Assembly (NCBI GenBank): GCA_016793095.1
Contig: JAEUJQ010000012.1
Span: 62,001 to 126,000, forward strand
DNA from: Myxococcaceae bacterium
Lineage (GTDB): Bacteria; Myxococcota; Myxococcia; Myxococcales; Myxococcaceae
DNA length: 64,000 bases
Reading direction: 5' to 3'
The notes beneath the pieces were generated by a model that ran no database searches, was not told the DNA's origin, and saw nothing but the letters and a program-made list of their open reading frames with translations. Numbering within the stretch: the first letter of the stretch is position 1; each line of letters starts with the position of its first letter. Positions 48,778 through 62,534 of the stretch are shown piece by piece. Position numbers and translations under genes: made by a program.

Positions 48778-50013
48778 TCAGGACGGCTGAGGTGCCTGGC
48801 TCTTCCGGCGCTTCTCGACGAGCCAGACGAGCACCACGCCGAGCTCGTAGCAGAGCAGCATGGGGCCAGCCATGAGGGCCAGGTTCACCGCGTCGCCGGT
48901 CGGCGTGAGGATGGCGGCGGCGATGAGGCAAATGACGAGCGCGTGCCGTTGGTACTTGAAGAGGAACGCCGACGAGACGAGGCCGACCATGCCCAGCACC
49001 ATCATCACGAGGGGCAGCTCGAAGATGAGGCCGAAGGCGAGCTCGAGCACCAGCACGAGCGACAGCTGCTCGCTCATCGACAGCATGGGCTTCGTCCAGT
49101 TCATGCTGTCGACGGTGGCGCGGCCGACGCTCAGGGTGCGCTCGAGCCTCCAGAGATCTGCGAAGTCCTGCGCCTGCGCCGCCGCGACCCCAGCCAGCAG
49201 CCCGGCGCCTTCGTCGGAGAGCTGCTGCGCCTTGTCGAGCTCGCCCTGGCCGAACGCCGAGATGGCCTCGAGGCGCTTCGCCATCACCTGGGTGAGCACG
49301 GGCCTGGCCTGCTCGCCGAAGCCCGCGCGGGTCGCGTCGACGAGGCGCCCGAGCCCCTCGATGCGCGCCATCACGTCGACGCTGCGCTTGGGCAGGAGCG
49401 CAGGGCCGAGCCCCTGGTCCGTGGTGCGTCCTTCTCCTGCGGCCTGAAGATCGCCGACCGCCGTCCGGGCCAGGGCGCCGGCGTGCTGGGGGTCGCCGAG
49501 CGCGAGGTAGCGAAGTGCGTCCTGCTCGCGAAGCCGTCCGGTGTCGATGCGCTGCTCGATGACGGCCACGTCCTCGCGCTGCAGGAGGAACTGGAACATC
49601 TGCGGCAGCAGCACGAAGTAGCAGAACGCGGCCCCCGCGACGAAGGCGAGCGTGCCGAACACGATGAACGGCCCCGCCAGCTTCTTCTCGTTGTCGTAGA
49701 GGCCCGGCGAGACGAAGCCCCAGATCTGCCAGAGCAGCACCGGCGTCGCGAGGAACACGCCGGAGTAGAGGCCGATCTTCATCAGCACGTTCAGCTCTTC
49801 GATGGCCGAGGTGTAGATGAGCTGCGCCGACTGGCTGGGCAGCGACATGAGGACCGGGCGCATGAGGAAGCCGTAGATCTCGCGCGCGAAGGTGAGCGAG
49901 AGCACCCCGAGGACGAGGACGACGATCACCACGCGCACGAGCCGGGTCCGGAGCTCCGCGAGGTGCTCGAACAGGCTCATCTTGTACTCTTCGGGGGTCG
50001 GGGCCGCGCCCAT
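48778..50013 (-). CDS. tatC: Twin-arginine translocase subunit TatC with large periplasmic insertion
   Basis: Core of the Tat export channel, which carries folded proteins across the inner membrane. TatC signatures: MSLFEHLAELRTRL at the start, the cytoplasmic/periplasmic helices, IYTSAIEELNVLMKIGL, WQIWGFVSPGLYDNEK, and the later LIFELPLVMMVLG. The protein is 411 residues, against about 250 normally. The excess is one insertion, residues about 148-300, in the periplasmic loop between helices 3 and 4; it is helical, hydrophilic and Ala-rich. Starts 1 nt after the tatA/B stop. An alternative ATG at 49980 (MSLFEHL) is also plausible. Confidence 0.95.
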   Translation of the reverse strand: MGAAPTPEEYKMSLFEHLAELRTRLVRVVIVVLVLGVLSLTFAREIYGFLMRPVLMSLPSQSAQLIYTSAIEELNVLMKIGLYSGVFLATPVLLWQIWGFVSPGLYDNEKKLAGPFIVFGTLAFVAGAAFCYFVLLPQMFQFLLQREDVAVIEQRIDTGRLREQDALRYLALGDPQHAGALARTAVGDLQAAGEGRTTDQGLGPALLPKRSVDVMARIEGLGRLVDATRAGFGEQARPVLTQVMAKRLEAISAFGQGELDKAQQLSDEGAGLLAGVAAAQAQDFADLWRLERTLSVGRATVDSMNWTKPMLSMSEQLSLVLVLELAFGLIFELPLVMMVLGMVGLVSSAFLFKYQRHALVICLIAAAILTPTGDAVNLALMAGPMLLCYELGVVLVWLVEKRRKSQAPQPS

Positions 50014-50506: not shown

Positions 50507-52234
50507 CTACCGACGAACGGGGAAGGCTGTGCCCTTGCCGCAGTACACGAAGGTGCCGTCGGGGGCCTTGCCAGCGCGGCGCAGGCCCGAGAACGCGAGG
50601 CTCGAGCCGGCGCGCGCGGGCCCGAGGGTCGCGTCTTCGATGCGCAGCACCACGGGAATGCCGGCGGGCAGGCCGTCGAAGGGCGAGATGAGCTCGGACA
50701 TGACGAAGCTCTTCCCCGAGCCGCAGCCGTTGGTCGGGATGCCGTAGTACGGGAACTTGTCGGTGAGGGAGATGACCTTCACGCGCGCGTCCTCCACCAG
50801 GCCAGCGGCGGCGAAGCGCGGGTCGGTCTTCGCCTCATCGAGCGAGCGCGCGGGGATCATGGCGCCGACTGAGGCCTTGCCGCCGAGATAGGCGTCGGGG
50901 GCCTGACCCTTCGGCTGGGTGCCGGCCGGCGGCGTGTTCGCGGGCGGCGGGGTCGTGGCGGTGGTCGTGGTCGTGGTGGTGGTGGCGACGTTCTGAGAGG
51001 GCGGCGGGGTCTCGCCGGGGCGCACGACGCGGCGTGAGGGCTCGTTCGACGGAGGCGGCTGCTTCGCGGCCTCGGCAGCGAGCCGCGCGGCTTCCTTCTT
51101 CTGCTCCTCCTCGAGCTTCTTCGCCTCAGCCTCGAGCCGCTTCGCCTCGGCGGCGGCGTTCTTCTCGGCCTCCTTCGCGGCCTTCGCCTCCTCGGCGAGG
51201 CGCTTCTTCTCTTCGGCGGCGGCCTTCTTCTCGTCCTCCTTCTTCTTCTTCTCCTCTTCGGCGAGGCGCTTCTTCTCTTCAGCCTCGGCCTTCTTCTTCG
51301 CCTTCTCCTCCTCGGCCAGGCGCTTCTTCTCCTCGGCTTCGGCCTTCTTCTTCTCGGCCTCGGCCTTCTTCTCCTCTTCCTTCTTCTTCTTCTCTTCCTC
51401 GGCGAGGCGCTTCTTCTCCTCGGCGGAGTTCTTGAACTCCTCTTCCTTCTTCTTCTTCTCCTCCGCCGCGGCCTTCGCCTCCTCTTCGGCCTTCTTCTTC
51501 TTCTCCTCGGCCTCGAGCTTCGCCTGCTCTTCCTTGAGCTTCTTCTCCTCGGCGTCGGCCTTCTTCTTCTCGAGCTCGACGCGCACCTTCTCGATCTCCT
51601 GGCGCTTCTTCTCGAGCTCGTCGTCGCGCTTCTTCTCCTCGGCGAGCTTCTTCTCCTCTTCCTTCTTCGCCTTCTCCTCGGCGGCGAGGCGCTTCTTCTC
51701 TTCGGCCTCGGCCTTCTTCTTCTCCTCGGCGGCCTTCTTCTCGTCCTCCTTGCGCTGCTTCTCCTCGGCGGCGAGGCGCTTCTTCTCTTCCTCGAGCTTC
51801 TTCTTCTCCTCCTCGAGGCGCTGCTTCTCCTGTTCGGCCTTGAGCTTCTTGTCCTCCTCGGCCTTCTTCTTCGCCTCGGCGGCCTCCTGCTCGGCCTTGA
51901 GCCGCTTCGCCTCGGCCTCGGCCTTCGCACGAGCCTCGGCTTCGGCCTTCGCGCGGGCGCTGTTCTCGGCCTCGAGCTTGCGGGCGGCCTCTTCGTCGGC
52001 CTTCTTCTTCTCTTCAGCAGCCTTCTTCGCGGCTTCCTCTTCGGCCTTCTTGCGCTCCGCCTCGGCCTTGATGGCGGCCTCGCGATCGCCGCGGGTGATG
52101 GGCTTGCGGCCGCCCGCGCCGGACTCGGTGGTGGCCGACGACTTCGGCGTGGCGACCTCGACCTCGTCCTGGGCAGAGGCGAGCGTGGCGGCGAGGCAGA
52201 GCGAGAGCAGCGAGAGGCGGCGGAAGGAAGTCAT
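50507..52234 (-). CDS. Secreted TolA-like coiled-coil protein
   Basis: The ATG at 52234 gives a Sec signal peptide (MTSFRRLSLLSLCLAATLASA) and 575 residues. Residues about 50-430 are a very long charged Lys/Glu/Ala helix built of EEKKKAEEE-like units, as in TolA domain II. A Thr/Pro-rich linker (TTTTTATTPPPANTPP) leads to a C-terminal domain of about 110 residues with two Cys (PTNGCGSGKS and VYCGKG). It could span the periplasm. It shares strand and spacing with tatA/B (36 nt) but starts in its own transcript. A longer frame upstream is a different reading of the MFS gene. Confidence 0.85.
   Translation of the reverse strand: MTSFRRLSLLSLCLAATLASAQDEVEVATPKSSATTESGAGGRKPITRGDREAAIKAEAERKKAEEEAAKKAAEEKKKADEEAARKLEAENSARAKAEAEARAKAEAEAKRLKAEQEAAEAKKKAEEDKKLKAEQEKQRLEEEKKKLEEEKKRLAAEEKQRKEDEKKAAEEKKKAEAEEKKRLAAEEKAKKEEEKKLAEEKKRDDELEKKRQEIEKVRVELEKKKADAEEKKLKEEQAKLEAEEKKKKAEEEAKAAAEEKKKKEEEFKNSAEEKKRLAEEEKKKKEEEKKAEAEKKKAEAEEKKRLAEEEKAKKKAEAEEKKRLAEEEKKKKEDEKKAAAEEKKRLAEEAKAAKEAEKNAAAEAKRLEAEAKKLEEEQKKEAARLAAEAAKQPPPSNEPSRRVVRPGETPPPSQNVATTTTTTTTATTPPPANTPPAGTQPKGQAPDAYLGGKASVGAMIPARSLDEAKTDPRFAAAGLVEDARVKVISLTDKFPYYGIPTNGCGSGKSFVMSELISPFDGLPAGIPVVLRIEDATLGPARAGSSLAFSGLRRAGKAPDGTFVYCGKGTAFPVRR
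51070..52080 (-). repeat. Low-complexity coding repeat (Lys/Glu/Ala codons)
   Basis: Purine-rich codon repeat of about 1 kb coding for the coiled-coil rod. On the plus strand it appears as CTTCTTCTTCTCCTCGGCG-like units. It gives long spurious frames on the other strand (Ser/Phe-rich) and is prone to length change by slippage. Confidence 0.85.
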
Positions 52235-52271
52235 GGCCGGCGTGTAGCCGAGGAACCGCCATGGGATCAAT

Positions 52272-52325
52272 GAACTGCACGGCCTGGGTCGAGCCGCACG
52301 GCCGGAACGAACCGCATGGGCCGGG
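52272..52325. repeat. Three ~18-nt direct repeats upstream of the coiled-coil gene
   Basis: Three consecutive copies of a GAxCxGCAyGGCC unit: 52272-52290, 52291-52308 and 52309-52325. The spacing of 18-19 nt and the position 38-91 nt upstream of the coiled-coil gene's ATG would suit an operator for a DNA-binding regulator. There is no direct evidence of function. The rest of the 104-nt gap holds no gene. Confidence 0.5.
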
Positions 52326-52338
52326 CGTCCCGGTCTCT

Positions 52339-53625
52339 TCAGCGGGCGGGCGCGCGCCGGCCGACGACCCGGCGCTCGACGACGAAGAGCAACAGCGGGA
52401 TGAGCAGAGACAGCGCCATCGAGACGAGGGCGACCGTGTCCATGCCGACGAGGGCGCGGAGCGGTCGGCCCGGCACGTCCGTCGGCAGGGGCGCGCGCGG
52501 CACCTCGGCGAGCAGGAGGCCCGAGCTGAAGGCCGCGAGCGCGGTGGCGGCGTGCTGGACCGCCGACTGGAGGCTCTGGAAGGTCGCCCGCCGGGCCGGG
52601 TCGGGCACCCTGGTGGTGAGGGTGTTGTACGAGACGTTGCGCAGGCCCTGGGCGAGCATGAAGCCCGCGAAGGCGACGAAGACCATCGACGACGCGAGGG
52701 ACGTTCGCGGCAGGTAGAAGAAGGTGAAGACGACGCCGATGACGAGGAGGGTGCCGGCGGTACCGACGCGGAAGGAGCCGAGGCGATCGACCGCGCGCCC
52801 GCCGAGCTGGGTGGCGACGAAGCTGGCGACCCCGCCGAAGAGGTACGCGTACTTGATGTGGGCCTCGGGCACCCCGAGGTTGAACTGCAGGTACGAAGCG
52901 ATGTTGGGGATGAGCACGAAGCCCGCCGACATCACGATGGCGGTCATCAGGTAGGACAACTGCACGTCGCGCTCGCGCACCAGCCGGAGCAGATCGCCGA
53001 GCGAGCGCCGGGGCGTGCCGAGGTGCCCCGTGAGCGGCGGCAGCAGGAAGATGGACACGACCCCGATGACGGCGCCGGCGGCCGCGACGGAGAAGAACGG
53101 GGCGCGCCAGCCGAAGTGCTCCGCCATCCACAGGCCAGCGGGCACGCCGAAGACCGACGCGACCGAGAAGGCGCCCATGACGGTGCCCATGGCCTTCCCG
53201 CGCACGTGGTTGGGGATGGTGTCGGCGATGATGGCGAAGCAGAGCGAGGTGGCAGGGCCGCCGAAGGCGCCGGCGACGGAGCGGGCGACGAGCAGCATTA
53301 CGAAGTCGTCGGCGAGGCCGCACAGCGCGGTGCCGATGACGAGGCCAGCGATGGCGACGCCCACCGCCTTGCGGCGATCGAAGCGGTCGAGGAACAACGC
53401 GCCCAGCAGGCCCATCACCGAGGCGGTCGCGGTGTAGCTGCCGTTCATCCACGGCAGGTGCGAGGCGGGGAAGTCGAGGGCCTGCGCGAGCCGCGGGCCG
53501 ATCGGCATCACGATGACGAAGTCGAGGATGTTGATGAACTGCAGGGCCGCGACGACGAGCACGATGCCCCACTGGCGGCCGGAGAGCGCCATCGACTGCC
53601 CTGTCGGAGCCTCAGGCGCCGTCAC
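52339..53625 (-). CDS. MFS transporter (DHA1-type drug/metabolite efflux)
   Basis: A 12-helix major facilitator of 428 residues from the GTG at 53625, or 417 from the ATG at 53592. Motif A is present in the loop after helix 2 (LDRFDRRKAVG), and LDFVIVMPIGPRLA is the helix-1 motif of the drug:proton antiporter group. The first 18 codons are duplicated at DNA level near 57117 with an in-frame 12-nt length difference, which argues that the segment before the ATG is translated and favours the GTG. Substrate unknown. Confidence 0.9.
   Translation of the reverse strand: MTAPEAPTGQSMALSGRQWGIVLVVAALQFINILDFVIVMPIGPRLAQALDFPASHLPWMNGSYTATASVMGLLGALFLDRFDRRKAVGVAIAGLVIGTALCGLADDFVMLLVARSVAGAFGGPATSLCFAIIADTIPNHVRGKAMGTVMGAFSVASVFGVPAGLWMAEHFGWRAPFFSVAAAGAVIGVVSIFLLPPLTGHLGTPRRSLGDLLRLVRERDVQLSYLMTAIVMSAGFVLIPNIASYLQFNLGVPEAHIKYAYLFGGVASFVATQLGGRAVDRLGSFRVGTAGTLLVIGVVFTFFYLPRTSLASSMVFVAFAGFMLAQGLRNVSYNTLTTRVPDPARRATFQSLQSAVQHAATALAAFSSGLLLAEVPRAPLPTDVPGRPLRALVGMDTVALVSMALSLLIPLLLFVVERRVVGRRAPAR
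53571..53625 (-). repeat. 5' end of the MFS gene, copied at 57051-57117
   Basis: The first 18 codons of the MFS gene. The segment CTGGCGGCCGG-GAGCGCCATCGACTGC and the segment GTCGGAGCCTC-GGCGCCGTCA-GA (plus-strand reading) recur almost unchanged at 57051-57117; the second copy carries 12 extra nucleotides between them. Both copies would encode MTAPEAPT...QSMAL(S/T)GRQ. Confidence 0.85.
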
Positions 53626-53704
53626 GATGGGGCGGTCTGTACACCACGCCTCTGGCCGTCGCCCGGAAACCGACGCGGGACAGCCTGCACACCCCGCGGG
53701 ACGA

Positions 53705-56440
53705 TCAGGGCCCGAACAAGATCGGCGTGGGCACCTGAACGGTTGGCGCGAGCTGGCCGACGCCCGCCTGGCCCCAGTCGTCGATGCCCCAGCAGAACGC
53801 GACACCACCGTCACGAACGCCGCAGGTGCCGATGCCGGAGGGGCCTCCCGCGTTCACGCTGATCCAGTCCGTCGCGGAGCCGACCTGGGTGGGCGTCGCG
53901 ATCGTCCCGGCGTCGCCGTTGCCGAGCTGGCCGTAGGAGTCGTCGCCCCAGCACCAGAGGCTGCCGCTCCCGCGTCGGCCGCAGGCGTGCGCAGAGCCGG
54001 TGCTGATCTCGACCCAGTCCGACGCCATGCCGACCCGCACCGGCGCAGGGCTCGACGCGCCTGGAACGCCGTCGCCGAGCTGCCCGGCCGCGTCATTCCC
54101 CCAGCAGTAGAGCGCGCCCGCGGTGTCGAGGCCGCACGCGAAGTCCGCCCCGAGCGACACGGTGGCCCAGGTGATGGCTGGGCCGACCTGGAGCTGCGTG
54201 ATGCTGCCAGGCGTGGAGAACACGGTGCCGAGCGGGCGCCCCCAGCACCAGGCCGTCGAGCCGCGCAGCCCGCAGGTTCCGTCCGACGAGGTGGCGACCC
54301 AGGTCCAGTCCGAGGCGGTGCCGACTCGCGTCGGATCCGTCAGGGAGCCGTTGGTGATGCCCAGCTGGCTGCGGAAGTTGGAGCCCCAGCACCAGAGCTC
54401 TCCGCCGCGAAGCCCGCAGCGATGGGACCCAGATGACGCGACGTGCGTCCAACCGGTCGCGGTGCCCACCTGCACTGGCGTCGGCGCGCCCTGCGCCCAC
54501 AGCCACACGGTTCCGTCCCCAGCGCGCGCGTACGTCACGCTCGTGGCGGTGACGACCTGCGCCCAGTCCGTGCGGATGCCGACCCGTGCCGGGCGCGTGA
54601 CCGCGATGGTCGAGGTGGAGCCGTTGCCGAGGAGGCCCTGCCGGTTGTCTCCCGCGCAGAAGATCTTCCCGCTCACGGTGCGCAGGCACATGTGGGCGAA
54701 GGCGACGGAGGCCGACGCGACGCGCGGCGCGGTGATCGTGAAGCTGGTCTGCGGCGGCGTGGGATCCGTCTTGCCCAGGGTGTCCATGCACTGGAGCTGG
54801 ACCGTATGAGCGCCAACCGGGAGCGTTCGGGTCACCGTCACGAGGTCGCTGCCGACGCTCTGCTGGCCAGGCACGGTGGACCACGAGGGCCAGAGGTCGG
54901 GGCCTCCGGCGAGGTCGTCGGTGCAGGTGCCCTCGAGGCTGATGGCGTCGCCGAGCTCGAAGGTAGCGCCGGCGTCGGGTGCGAGGATGGTGGCGTTGGG
55001 CGGGTTGTTGGGGATCACCACGACGGACGCCGAGGCGTTCACCGGGCCACCGCGCCCTGAGCAGGTGAGCGTGAAGGTGGTGTCGCCGGACGGAATGGTG
55101 GTGATGGTGCCGCCAGGGGGACCGGCGTCGAGGGCGCCGGGCATGATGGAGCACGCGCTCGCGTTCTCCACCGTCCACGAGAGGTAGACCTCGTCACCGA
55201 GCGAGAGCGGCGAGGGCCCCAGCGAGAAGTCGGTGATGGAGACGGGCGGCGGCGTGAGGGTCACCGTGAGGGAGCGCGACTCCTGCTCGCTCTGGCGGTA
55301 GCAGGTCAGGGTGAAGGTCGTGGTGGCGGCGACGGTCAAGGTCACCGAGTCGTTGGGGTTGAGCACGCTGAAGAGGCTGGGCACCAACGAGCATCGGTCG
55401 GCGTTGTTGGTCGTCCAGGTGAACGTCACTGGAATGCCGGCGTCACCCGTCGTCGGGGAGGCGGTGAAGGTGAGGATGATGCCTGGGCCTGCGTCCGGCG
55501 CACCCGCGTCGATGACGCCAGCGTCGGAGCCGGCGTCGATGGTACCCGCGTCGATGGGCCCCGCATCCATGGTGCCCGCGTCGATGGATCCCGCGTCGAT
55601 GGCTCCGGCGTCGCTGGAGCCCGCGTCGAAGCCGCCTGCGTCGCTGGAGCCCGCGTCAATGGTGCCCGCATCACCGACGCCACCATCGCAACGTGGCGCA
55701 TACCCGCTCCCGGCGTCATCGAGGCAGATCGGGTAGCTCTCGAGAGAGCCGAGGGGGTTGAGGTACCGGATGACGCAGAGTCGATCGATGCACTCCGAGG
55801 AGGTCGCTACCATTGCGCACTGGCTGGTGTTGGCGCACGGCTTCACGTTGCACGTGGGGCCACCTCCCGGGCAGGTGTAGGTCGGCACCGTGACGCCACC
55901 ATCGCAGGCGGGTTCAAACCAGCGACCGTCGGCGTCGTAGCAGACCGGGGCGCCTCCACGCTGAACGCAGAGCCCATCGACGCAAGCCACCACATCGGTG
56001 CATTGGAGGTCGCTGGAGCACCGCCTCTGCGTGCACGTTGGGCCACCTCCCGGGCAGGTGTAGATGAGCGCGTGCGACTCGGCACAGGCTCGCTCGAGCG
56101 TGGTCGCCGAGCCTGAGAAGATGCAGGCCGTATCCGCCCCACCATCCTCGAACGGGACGACGCACATCTTCCCCGACGGGGTCTCGCGACACTCCGTCGG
56201 AGCCCCCGCCTGCGCCGAGCAGTGCGAGCTGTTCTCGCACCTTCTCGCAGCGCAGCTCCGTGAGAGGTCGGCGGCGCACGGAATGCCGACCACGTGATCA
56301 AGGCACGCGTTCGTGCGCTCGTCGAACACCTGACCCGCCGGGCACCGCGAGCACCCGTCGAGCAGGAGCAGCGACACGGAGGTGACGATCGCCCAGAGGC
56401 GCCAGGTCGGTCGTTCGGCGAGTCGGTACAACGCGCGCAT
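53705..56440 (-). CDS. RCC1-repeat lipoprotein
   Basis: The ATG at 56440 gives 911 residues with a lipoprotein signal (LWAIVTSVSLLLLDGC). The order is: Cys-rich segments with CPGGGPTC twice (about 45-250), a long Asp-Ala-Gly linker (about 255-320), two or three Ig-like beta domains (about 325-570), then a C-terminal region with RCC1-type repeats (about 580-911). The repeats contain motifs such as LWCWGDDSYGQLGNG and YCWGNDAAGQLGDG, expected to form a propeller. Such lipoproteins are common in myxobacteria and are probably surface-exposed; the ligand is unknown. An in-frame start 21 codons earlier is less likely. Confidence 0.92.
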   Translation of the reverse strand: MRALYRLAERPTWRLWAIVTSVSLLLLDGCSRCPAGQVFDERTNACLDHVVGIPCAADLSRSCAARRCENSSHCSAQAGAPTECRETPSGKMCVVPFEDGGADTACIFSGSATTLERACAESHALIYTCPGGGPTCTQRRCSSDLQCTDVVACVDGLCVQRGGAPVCYDADGRWFEPACDGGVTVPTYTCPGGGPTCNVKPCANTSQCAMVATSSECIDRLCVIRYLNPLGSLESYPICLDDAGSGYAPRCDGGVGDAGTIDAGSSDAGGFDAGSSDAGAIDAGSIDAGTMDAGPIDAGTIDAGSDAGVIDAGAPDAGPGIILTFTASPTTGDAGIPVTFTWTTNNADRCSLVPSLFSVLNPNDSVTLTVAATTTFTLTCYRQSEQESRSLTVTLTPPPVSITDFSLGPSPLSLGDEVYLSWTVENASACSIMPGALDAGPPGGTITTIPSGDTTFTLTCSGRGGPVNASASVVVIPNNPPNATILAPDAGATFELGDAISLEGTCTDDLAGGPDLWPSWSTVPGQQSVGSDLVTVTRTLPVGAHTVQLQCMDTLGKTDPTPPQTSFTITAPRVASASVAFAHMCLRTVSGKIFCAGDNRQGLLGNGSTSTIAVTRPARVGIRTDWAQVVTATSVTYARAGDGTVWLWAQGAPTPVQVGTATGWTHVASSGSHRCGLRGGELWCWGSNFRSQLGITNGSLTDPTRVGTASDWTWVATSSDGTCGLRGSTAWCWGRPLGTVFSTPGSITQLQVGPAITWATVSLGADFACGLDTAGALYCWGNDAAGQLGDGVPGASSPAPVRVGMASDWVEISTGSAHACGRRGSGSLWCWGDDSYGQLGNGDAGTIATPTQVGSATDWISVNAGGPSGIGTCGVRDGGVAFCWGIDDWGQAGVGQLAPTVQVPTPILFGP
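55488..55682 (-). repeat. Asp-Ala-Gly coding repeats (18-nt units)
   Basis: Tandem in-frame repeat in the RCC1 lipoprotein gene, giving about thirteen xDAGx units (SSDAGGFDAG and so on). Plus-strand reading shows GCGTCGATGG(T/G)(G/C)CCC units, many identical over 15 nt or more. Likely to vary in copy number between strains. Confidence 0.85.
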
Positions 56441-56540
56441 TCGGGCTCCAGTCGGCGGAAGGAGCAGCGACTGTAGGTCGGTGCTGCCGGCCGTGGGGGG
56501 CATTCCAACGCAGGTTGATCGAAGACAGGCGGCCGGGCGC

Positions 56541-57117
56541 TCAGGCTGACTTCGCCCGCAGCGCCTCCCACAGCCCGGCGTAGTTCAGCAGGATGTTCTT
56601 GAGCCCCGTCCGCACCTTCTCCGAGCCGAGCGCCTGCGCGCTCATCGTCTCGTGCGCCTCCAGCGCCGCCATCAGCGCGTTCACCAGCTCCTTCTCGAGG
56701 TCGGGCGAGGCGGCGAACTGCTCCTTGGTGTTGTTGGCGGCCTGTTCGATGAGCGTCGTCGACTCGAGCAGCTTCGTCTTGATGACCTTGTCGACGTAGA
56801 CGAGCTGGTCGTCATCGGTGAGGTCGCCCTGGAACAGCTCGTTCAGCTTCTCGATGATGGCCGCGAGCCTCGCCTTCTTCTTGTCCTGGACGCTGCCACT
56901 CCCGGCCTCGGTGAGCGGCTCGATCTTCGGGTTCTCCCCCTGGCTCAGCATCATCAAGGCGACGCCGTGCGAGCGCAGCGCGTAGTGCGAGAGCTCTACC
57001 TTCGAGAGGTCGATGTTCTCGCGCTCCCTGCCGAACTCGAGCAGCGGCAGGCTGGCGGCCGGTGAGCGCCATCGACTGCTCCGCGGGGTGAGGGGTCGGA
57101 GCCTCCGGCGCCGTCAT
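56541..57117 (-). pseudogene. Relic of type I restriction subunit R (HsdR C-terminus) fused to an MFS gene 5' end
   Basis: From 57050 down to the stop at 56541, 169 codons read as the C-terminus of HsdR: FGRERENIDLSKVELSHYAL, SQGENPKIEPLTEAGSGSVQ, LTDDDQLVYVDKVIKTKL, LIEQAANNTKEQFAASPDLE and the terminal LLNYAGLWEALR. The helicase and nuclease parts are absent, and no hsdM or hsdS is present. Upstream of 57051 the DNA instead matches the first 18 codons of the MFS gene at 53625, with its own ATG at 57117 in a different frame. An internal ATG at 56957 could yield a 138-residue peptide. It looks like a recombination scar, not a working gene. Confidence 0.82.
57051..57117 (-). repeat. Second copy of the MFS gene 5' end
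   Basis: About 55 of 67 nt align with 53571-53625, with a 12-nt insertion and a few substitutions. Translation from the ATG at 57117 gives MTAPEAPTPHPAEQSMALTG and then leaves the MFS frame exactly at the junction with the HsdR remnant. Confidence 0.85.
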
Positions 57118-57211
57118 GACGCCGACGTACCTATACCAGCGGGCTCGGCGCCGCTCGGAATCCAACACTTCTCGTTCCGCCGGGTGCGCAGCCGTGCGAG
57201 GGAGCAGCGGC

Positions 57212-58687
57212 GTGCTCCCTTCGTGGTGGACCAGACCTCTGCCGTGGCGCGTGCTCCTCGCGGCAGGGCTCGTGAGCGGCGCGGCGGCGCGGCTGTGGCT
57301 CGCCTTCACCGACCACGGCACCTACTGGCCCGACGAGGTCTTCCAGTCCATCGAGCCGGCGCATCGCATGGCCTTCGGCTACTCGCTGGTAGCGTGGGAG
57401 TTCGTCGTTGGCGCGCGCAACGTGTTGTTGCCCGGCGCCATCGCGGGGGTGCTCAGAGCGCTCGCGGCCCTGGGTCTCGACGACCCCTCCGTCTACGTCC
57501 CGGTCGTGCGGGCGCTCTTCGCGTTGTCCTCGGTCGGCACGGTCTGGGGCGTGTACCGGCTTGCGCGCGCGACGGGCTGCGCCCTGCCCTCAGCCGTCGT
57601 CGGCGCGCTGGCCTACTGCTGGATGAGCCTCGCCATCTACTTCTCGCCACGCGCGATGAGCGAGGTCGCGTCGGCCCTCCCCGTGGTGTGGGGGCTTGCG
57701 CTGCTGCTCGAGGCGCCGCGGCTGAGGAAGCTCGTCCTCGGGGCGTCAATGCTGGGGCTCGCCGTGCTCCTGCGAATCCACTGCGGCCTCTTCGCGGCCG
57801 GCGCGGTGCTGGTGCTCGCGCTGCAACACCGCCGGCGTGACGCGCTGATCGTGCTCGGCGTGCTGTGCCTCTGGGCGGTCGTCTACGGGCTGCTCGACCT
57901 GTACGCCTGGGGCGGCTTCCTGCACTCGGGCCTCTACTACCTGCGCTTCAACCTCCTCGAGGGCCGCGCCGCCGAGTGGGGCACCGCGCCACCGGCCTTC
58001 TACACGAGGTACCTGGTGAAGAGCCTCGGGCCCCACTGGGTGGCCATCGCGGTGCTCGCGGTCGTGGGGCTCCGGCGTTCACCGGCGGTGGTGGGCCTCG
58101 CGCTGGCGTTCCTGCTGGGGCACCTCGCCCTGCCCCACAAGGAGCTGCGCTTCATCGTCCCGTTCCTGCCGCTCGCCTGCGCTGGTGCGGCAGCCGGCGT
58201 GGAGCAGCTGGTGGGCTGGCGGTGGCCGGTGGGCGGCACGGCAGCCGGCGTGCTGCTGGCGACCAGCCTGTTCTCGTTCGTGACGTTTCACTCGCTCACC
58301 TTCGCGCAGCTCGGCCGCGGCGAGGCGGTGAGCGCGTACGACTCGGGCGGGAACGTCACGCGGCTGTTGATGGTGGCCGGGCGCCAGCGCGATCTGTGCG
58401 GGCTGGGCCTCGAGCTTGGGACGCGCGGAGCGACGTTCGGCTACTACGCGCTGCACCGTGACGTGCCGTTCTCCGAAGCCCCGCTGCCGCGAGAGACCTC
58501 ACGGTTCTACAACTACGTCATCGTCGAGGAGGGCACTGGCGCGGGAGAGGTCGTCGCCACCGATGACGGCGCCGCGCTGCTGCGGCTCGGACCGGGGCCC
58601 TGCGAAAGAGACCCGGCCTTCACGCCCTGGCTCGACGAGCGGACCCGCGCTCTCGCGGAGAGCCCGGAGTCGCGCCCTGGACGGTGA
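57212..58687 (+). CDS. GT22-family mannosyltransferase (ALG9/PIG-B-like)
   Basis: A polytopic membrane glycosyltransferase using polyprenyl-phosphate sugar. The GTG at 57212 has a GGAG site 7 nt upstream and gives 491 residues; in-frame starts at 57194 and 57116 are possible. The GT22 signature is strong: GTYWPDEVFQSIEPAHRMAF, then WEFVVGARNVLLPG, and the late HKELRFIVPFLPLA. It has about ten membrane helices and a soluble C-terminal domain with several conserved Cys. In eukaryotes this family builds N-glycans and GPI anchors; bacterial members have unknown acceptors. Divergent from the HsdR relic. Confidence 0.9.
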   Translation: MLPSWWTRPLPWRVLLAAGLVSGAAARLWLAFTDHGTYWPDEVFQSIEPAHRMAFGYSLVAWEFVVGARNVLLPGAIAGVLRALAALGLDDPSVYVPVVRALFALSSVGTVWGVYRLARATGCALPSAVVGALAYCWMSLAIYFSPRAMSEVASALPVVWGLALLLEAPRLRKLVLGASMLGLAVLLRIHCGLFAAGAVLVLALQHRRRDALIVLGVLCLWAVVYGLLDLYAWGGFLHSGLYYLRFNLLEGRAAEWGTAPPAFYTRYLVKSLGPHWVAIAVLAVVGLRRSPAVVGLALAFLLGHLALPHKELRFIVPFLPLACAGAAAGVEQLVGWRWPVGGTAAGVLLATSLFSFVTFHSLTFAQLGRGEAVSAYDSGGNVTRLLMVAGRQRDLCGLGLELGTRGATFGYYALHRDVPFSEAPLPRETSRFYNYVIVEEGTGAGEVVATDDGAALLRLGPGPCERDPAFTPWLDERTRALAESPESRPGR

Positions 58688-58714: not shown

Positions 58715-59104
58715 TCAGGTGAGTCGATCGCGAAGGCGCGTGACGAGCGCGGCGGCGTCGGCGCTCTTCGGGTCGAGGCGCAGGGCCTCATGGGCGACGT
58801 CGAGCGCGTGCAGGAAGTGTCGGCGGGCTGCGTGGGTCGCGCCGGTGAGCAGCTCGAGGTCGCCGTACGCCTCGAGGATGGTGGCGAACAGCGCCACCTT
58901 GTCGGCGCGACCCAGCACCTGGGCGGCCGAGGCGGCGTCGACGAAGGCGAGGGTCGACGGCTCCATGCCCAGGAGGATCCGCGCGGCGGTGTCGAGCTCG
59001 GCGCGGGCCTTCGGCGGGTCCGTCAGCGCCAGCTTCAGCACGCGCGCGATGAGCTCGGCGAGCCGCTTCACCTGGCGGATGAGGTAGTCGCGTTCCTCCA
59101 GCAC
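58715..59104 (-). CDS. Small helical (TPR-like) protein, DUF6483-like, 129 aa
   Basis: A helical protein with start MLEERDYLIRQVKRLAELIA, which resembles the opening of DUF6483 proteins, followed by paired helices (KALFATILEAYGDLELL, HFLHALDVAHEALRLDPKS) of TPR type. Acidic and soluble; function unknown. It is divergent from the gene at 59157 across 52 nt. Confidence in the family name is low; confidence that it is a real gene is good. Confidence 0.72.
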   Translation of the reverse strand: MLEERDYLIRQVKRLAELIARVLKLALTDPPKARAELDTAARILLGMEPSTLAFVDAASAAQVLGRADKVALFATILEAYGDLELLTGATHAARRHFLHALDVAHEALRLDPKSADAAALVTRLRDRLT

Positions 59105-61465: not shown

Positions 61466-61534
61466 CGAAAGCCCCGGCCCGGAGGGATCCGGAGGGTGTC
61501 CGGCAGCTGACGCGCGGCGCTCAGCGGTCGGCGC

Positions 61535-61920
61535 ACTCTCACCGCGACTCACGGTGGCTTCACCCGGACCTCACCGCGCGAGCGTCTCCCGCGACTCAAC
61601 TGCCGCATCACACGGACCTCACCGCGCGAGCGTCTCCGACCAGTCAGGCTGGCGCTTCACGCGGACCTCACCGCGCGCAGCGTCTCCCGCGACTCACGGT
61701 GGCTTCACCCGGACCTCACCGCGCGCAGCGTCTCCCGCGACTCACGGTGGCGCTTCACGCGAACCTCACCGCGCGAGCGTCCCCGACGAGTCAGGCTGGC
61801 GCTTCACCCGGACCTCACCGCGCGCAGCGTCTCCCGCGACTCACGGCGGCGCTTCACCCGGACCTCACCGCGCGAGCGTCTCCCGCGACTCAACTGCCAC
61901 ATCACACGGACCGCTCGCTG
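61535..61920. repeat. Intergenic array of seven ~47-51-bp imperfect repeats
   Basis: The 469 nt between the M50-like gene and the convergent lipoprotein hold seven near-full copies plus one partial copy of a unit. The shared block is GGACCTCACCGCGCG(C)AGCGTCTCCCGCGACTCA. Between blocks a 14-20-nt core comes in three forms: A (CGGTGGC(GC)TTCACCCGG), B (ACTGCC(G/A)CATCACACGG) and C (GGCTGGCGCTTCAC(G/C)CGG). The order along the plus strand is A-B-C-A-A-C-A-B. No reading frame through it looks protein-coding. It could be a regulatory or structural element; identity unknown. Confidence 0.85.
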
Positions 61921-61934
61921 CTGCAGGTGACGGC

Positions 61935-62534
61935 TCAGGGCTGACAGAAGCCGCGGCTGCAGGCCCACCGCGTGGCCTTTGGATCCCACGCACAGAACCC
62001 GTCGCGGGGCGTCACGCCGCCGTCGCCCACGCAGTCCTGGTCGGAGCCGCACTCGTCCCGCCCTGAGCGGCAGAAGTACCCGGTGGCCCGATCGTTGTTG
62101 CAGAACGCGTTGCTGAAGGAGCAGCAACTCGCGCCGCAGTCCGCGTTCGTCTTGCAGCCCGCTGTCACGCACAGGTGACCGGTGAAGCCCTGCTCTGGCG
62201 GTCCGCGGGGCTGACACTGACAGACCTTGCCGGCGCCACAGTCCTCATCCACGAGGCACTCGTCGTACGAGCACTGCAGGCGCGCGGCCGCGGTGAGCCC
62301 GTTTCCCTGAAAGCAGCGCCCGTTGCGGCCAGCGGTGCAGTCGGCGTCGACGTTGCACCCGGCGTCGGCCACCAGGGCGCCTGCGTCCAACCGGCTGGGC
62401 GCGCGGGTCGAGGTGCACGCGGCGACGCTCGCGCGCTGGTTCGGCTCGCCGGCGGTGCAGACCGGGTTCACGGCCGGACCACACTGGCACCCGGCGATCA
62501 CGGCGAAGAGGACGAGCAGAGCGCGCGTTCGCAT
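61935..62534 (-). CDS. Cys-rich lipoprotein, 199 aa
   Basis: Start MRTRALLVLFAVIAGC is a lipoprotein signal with lipobox and Cys16. The mature protein has about twenty Cys in EGF-like or Cys-knot spacing, with segments DADCTAGRNGRCFQG, DEDCGAGKVCQC, TNADCGASCCSFSNAFC and DQDCVGDGGVTPRDGFC. The repeating D-x-D-C-G form is like other short myxobacterial Cys-rich surface proteins. Ligand unknown. It is downstream of, and on the same strand as, the chemoreceptor gene. Confidence 0.85.
   Translation of the reverse strand: MRTRALLVLFAVIAGCQCGPAVNPVCTAGEPNQRASVAACTSTRAPSRLDAGALVADAGCNVDADCTAGRNGRCFQGNGLTAAARLQCSYDECLVDEDCGAGKVCQCQPRGPPEQGFTGHLCVTAGCKTNADCGASCCSFSNAFCNNDRATGYFCRSGRDECGSDQDCVGDGGVTPRDGFCAWDPKATRWACSRGFCQP

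Follow-up and report, generated by a model that had tools for sequence, protein, structure and literature searches.

A truncated hsdR gene joined to a second 5′ end of a transporter gene at a variable locus in a Myxococcaceae genome

Gene content of the locus

The DNA analysed here (the window, 64,000 nucleotides) comes from contig C6 (160.6 kb) in a draft Myxococcaceae genome of 8.81 Mb in 93 contigs (98.65% complete). We compared it with six other genomes of the same genus (G001–G006), which represent other species; three of them are incomplete (G003, 87%; G005, 85%; G004, 89%), which limits the counts for relatives accordingly, and some of their loci are short owing to contig ends (4.9 kb for L059, from G006). 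The arrangement described below was seen in one genome.

The locus begins with an intact MFS transporter gene (52339–53625, minus strand; GTG start, inferred from alignment) and its conserved leader (53626–53689, minus strand). These are followed by a gene for an RCC1-repeat protein (53705–56503, minus strand), the C-terminal remnant of an HsdR protein (56541–57050, minus strand), a second copy of the MFS 5′ coding end (57052–57117, minus strand) with its upstream leader (57118–57169, minus strand), a GT22 gene (Alg9-like mannosyltransferase; 57194–58687, plus strand) and a small gene (58715–59104, minus strand).

The intact MFS gene is orthologous to genes in all six genus mates. Each of the seven genomes carries a single ortholog (at least 78% identity), and the next best match in any of them reaches no more than 29%. 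The nearest NCBIfam model is MxcK (NF038077), with a score of 244 bits that lies below the cut-off of 525. The ortholog is also carried by named myxobacterial MAG records (Myxococcus sp., Archangium sp., Myxococcaceae and others); a scan of named records for the MFS locus returned seven loci, one of them a distant Mycobacterium match, with no closer strain among them. Ahead of the start codon, the relatives' MFS genes share a common leader containing GCTGGTGTACAG or a near form of it.

The second copy reproduces only the 5′ end of this MxcK-like transporter gene and its leader. It consists of an ATG and 21 further codons, preceded by about 50 nucleotides of leader containing GCTGGTATA, and its 22 codons correspond to 18 at the start of the intact gene; the transporter frame then stops, whereas the gene at 52339–53625 is complete. 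Self-comparison of the window, as proposed for the 53.5–57.2 kb interval in a preliminary description of this DNA, recovered the repeat (53572–53627 against 57052–57119, 75% over 68 columns, E = 3e-7), with 51 of 56 aligned bases identical, five substitutions and a 12-nucleotide gap. That description had equated the segment with the first 18 codons of the MFS gene plus a 12-nucleotide difference; the match itself holds and the extent does not, the copy being 22 codons long and including the leader.

A profile HMM built from the MFS 5′ regions of the six relatives, with both window copies excluded, matched the intact gene (53676–53561, E = 4.8e-16) and the second copy (57169–57052, E = 2.9e-10), and its next-best place scored E = 1.5. 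Even a model of the upstream region alone, built with the intact window gene among its sequences, recovered 57167–57132 (E = 5e-4). Since the profile matched the leader along with the start, both were captured together. Positions 57040–57135 have no match in the 8.8 Mb genome besides the intact MFS 5′ end. We therefore rejected the idea, named in the preliminary description as grounds against a scar, that the MFS-like segment is a common leader elsewhere in the genome.

The two MFS 5′ copies form direct repeats that flank the HsdR remnant and the RCC1 gene, as would be expected if an integrating element or island had inserted at codon 18–22 of the MFS gene and carried a further MFS 5′ end with it (a target duplication). 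However, none of the window proteins scanned was recognised as an integrase or transposase, and the repeats differ by five bases and 12 nucleotides, so that we regard such an element as very unlikely.

The HsdR remnant

The remnant, about the last sixth of an hsdR gene, is an open frame of 169 codons and a stop, as the preliminary description had noted in reporting about 170 HsdR C-terminal codons. Its residues (57050–56544, minus strand; searched as a 170-residue query) correspond to the last ~170 of intact HsdR proteins in relatives, with 78% amino acid identity over 169 residues to that of G003 (E = 1e-81; open frame of 1082) and 68% to that of G006 (open frame of 1068); HsdR proteins of two further genomes (G055 and G049) are 65% identical. 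The G003 and G006 proteins, which extend some 900 codons further upstream, align with the remnant over the whole of its 169 residues, and the residues of G003 HsdR that match the window are 902–1070 only. The full-length G003 protein contains HSDR_N, SWI2_SNF2 and T1R_D3 domains and is encoded in an hsdM-hsdS-hsdR operon. The remnant thus resembles a type I HsdR in its last 169 residues and differs from it in lacking the ~900 codons of the N-terminal nuclease (HSDR_N) and helicase motor (SWI2/SNF2) domains.

Because Pfam and NCBIfam hold no family model for the tail itself, its identity rests on these full-length relatives. An NCBIfam match to PqqD and matches in the PDB were judged to be due to chance and rejected, and PADLOC models gave weak matches (PDC-S15, E = 3e-4; NsnC, E = 0.007). 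The tail query matched 12 of 99 genomes at E ≤ 0.001 (the source genome included, and several of the matches weak), as well as 44 plasmid records; the best 20 of these 44 are mostly annotated as type I restriction endonucleases or DEAD/DEAH helicases.

Elsewhere in the source genome there is no second match to the tail. A search for HSDR_N found none in the whole genome and was positive in 9 of 14 control genomes. The HsdM protein of G003, used as a query, had no match in the source genome and full-length matches in G003 and G006. Two N6_Mtase matches are present on contig C47, the stronger of which has no similarity to G003 HsdM (tblastn at an E threshold of 1e-5). Within the window, queries consisting of the filtered open reading frames of loci L065–L067 (a set without the G003 hsdS) detected no hsd pieces besides the tail; two regulator frames of L066 matched at a response-regulator region (48 kb) only. 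The genome therefore differs from one with a type I restriction-modification locus in that no cognate hsdM was found, with no hsdS detected in the window by that same query set.

The junction

The switch between the two similarities is abrupt, in agreement with the preliminary description, which had placed it at 57051/57050 with the shared MFS stretch ending exactly there. MFS similarity ends at ...GGCCGCCAG (57052), HsdR similarity begins with CTG (57050), and a single C (57051) lies between (all on the minus strand). The junction-side edge of DNA similarity to hsdR falls at 57050 with G006 and G055 and at 57055 with G003, and the opposite edge (56539, 56550 or 56557) falls at the stop codon or within ~16 bases of it.

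An error of assembly could produce a join of this kind, and the genome is a draft in 93 contigs with the join judged from the assembly alone. The site is nevertheless internal to a 160-kb contig, and the shared MFS segment, being short (68 columns) and not identical in the two copies, would be a poor cause of misassembly; a chimeric assembly is accordingly highly improbable.

The MFS and HsdR frames do not match across the join, the MFS frame continuing as an unrelated frame to 56812, and the join therefore encodes no fusion protein. The tail might instead be a small functional gene driven by the acquired MFS leader: its 169 codons are free of stops and frameshifts, and its dN/dS to G003 is 0.24. 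Against this, translation from the MFS start codon would not enter the frame of the tail, which offers no start of its own before a TTG at 56957 (31 codons in and with no ribosome-binding site evident by eye), the genome encodes no cognate HsdM as a binding partner, and the low dN/dS mostly reflects the time before truncation. We consider a working gene very doubtful.

A comparison of private changes at codon positions 1 and 2 (12 of 20 in the tail, 13 of 31 in G003; three outgroups; P = 0.26) gave no significant sign of relaxed selection on the tail (P = 0.26–0.47). The truncation is therefore either recent compared with the divergence from G003 or represented by too little sequence to tell. 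In type I enzymes, HsdR probably docks on the methyltransferase through its C-terminus. A stand-alone HsdR C-terminus, transcribed from the captured MFS leader, might on that basis be kept as a decoy against incoming type I systems, a role that we think extremely improbable. The place is, with high confidence, a recombination scar without function, which upholds the preliminary description on the scar and its hsdR remnant precisely switched to MFS 5′ DNA.

The locus in related genomes

In none of the six genus mates is there an hsdR, GT22 or RCC1 gene at the place beside MFS. In three of them (G003, G005 and G001) the small gene, which delimits the inserted block on its far side, is the immediate upstream neighbour of MFS. 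In G006 a Redoxin gene (L059, 488–988) occupies the gap between the small gene and MFS, which gives this spot a cargo of another kind. G004 and G002 have an M50-like gene next to MFS, and the small gene was not found at their MFS loci. The spot between the small gene and MFS is thus variable, with different cargo in different members of the genus. The close hsdR genes of G003 and G006 sit on other contigs than the MFS locus.

The preliminary description had suggested that a type I restriction locus, and possibly a second MFS gene, once lay at this site. Neither a complete type I locus nor a second MFS gene gains support from the relatives: none has hsdR there, and the single MFS ortholog in each of the seven genomes leaves a lost second MFS gene unsupported.

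The GT22 gene (57194–58687, plus strand; loci L062, L063 and L099 in the comparison) has moved. Its neighbour in G006 and G003 is an Hsp70-like gene, which it follows, and in G001 one gene separates the two. The source genome keeps that Hsp70-like gene on contig C56 (87%), with no GT22 within an 11-kb stretch around it. GT22 therefore arrived at its present site from elsewhere. Between the GT22 start codon, where its similarity to G006 begins, and the end of the copied MFS leader there are ~25 bases.

Origin of the junction

We find two diverged MFS starts, a foreign block between them and one abrupt join, a combination that fits an exchange with one homologous and one illegitimate end. The best single explanation, to which we assign about an even chance, is that DNA was imported from a relative by homology at the MFS end and end joining at the hsdR end. 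Several observations favour it: the edge of the HsdR tail, the MFS stump with its leader, the block-free site in relatives and the one MFS ortholog per genome, together with MFS 5′ ends that are diverged rather than identical and the lack of HSDR_N and of a cognate HsdM in the genome.

The sequence of events would be as follows. GT22 would have moved in before the recipient's original MFS 5′ end. A related strain with the order hsdR tail, RCC1 gene, MFS may then have donated DNA that recombined homologously within MFS or beyond at one end and was joined illegitimately at the other; there the recipient MFS would have been broken behind codon 22 and attached to the incoming hsdR at about codon 902. 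What remained of the recipient gene would be a stump abutting GT22, made up of the leader and the first 22 codons, and the present intact MFS gene would be the donor allele, which could account for the five substitutions and 12 nucleotides that separate the copies. One-sided homologous import would thereby explain a stump without a second MFS gene, and would leave a patchwork of ~5 kb at a variable spot (GT22, MFS 5′ stump with leader, HsdR tail and RCC1-repeat gene).

Events of this type, termed homology-facilitated illegitimate recombination (HFIR), combine homologous recombination at one end with illegitimate joining at the other and loss of recipient DNA (PMC3240628). The present arrangement, as reconstructed here, would resemble the junctions described in that paper in having a foreign block with homology on one side, an abrupt join on the other and lost recipient sequence. 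Most junctions in the same paper have 3–10 bp of microhomology, which is usual there but not obligatory; at the 57050 join at most 1 nucleotide is visible, judged from the sequence that survives on either side of it.

The genome encodes a Ku homologue, which counts in favour of import by end joining. Synonymous divergence from G003 is similar for the HsdR tail (0.62) and MFS (0.52), as exchange between members of the genus would allow. Over leader and start, identity between the two window copies (65%) is no higher than that of the intact copy with G003 (68%), which counts against a close donor and fixes the source of neither copy. It also counts against import that neither of the gene orders that it implies (hsdR, RCC1, MFS in the donor; GT22, MFS in the recipient) was found in any genome. 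The identity profile of MFS against the six relatives contained no clear mosaic switch, the homologous end being resolvable only with a close strain.

A further possibility is a tandem duplication of MFS with a type I locus between or beside the copies, followed by a single deletion that took hsdMS along with the greater part of both hsdR and the second MFS gene. Duplication and deletion would yield the observed junction and the same final anatomy, which counts against import being distinguished from it. Both window copies also begin with MTAPEAPT, a start present in none of the six relatives, as expected of a duplication within the lineage. Against it, there is no second MFS ortholog in any of the seven genomes, hsdR is at the locus in none of the six relatives, no other hsd pieces were found in the window with queries that did not include the G003 hsdS, and more events are required. 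We regard this history as possible, with a chance well short of even. Import from a relative remains our preferred reading.

The locus resolves a single exchange scar to the base and retains a stump that hints at how the two parts were joined; it also records a variable spot next to the tat genes of an uncultured myxobacterial genus. Such a scar is ordinary genome plasticity and leaves general understanding unchanged.

Other features of the window

On the far side of the MFS gene, a TatC-like protein (48778–50013, minus strand; named by eye) of 411 residues has an apparent internal stretch of ~160 residues and is 84–87% identical in relatives with complete loci. Between a TatB-like gene and MFS lies a gene for a very Lys/Glu/Ala-rich protein (50507–52300, minus strand), which has no Pfam match and is kept at the locus in relatives. 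At 61500–62070, open reading frame translations repeat the unit GPHRASVSRDST and variants of it, probably reflecting a tandem DNA repeat.
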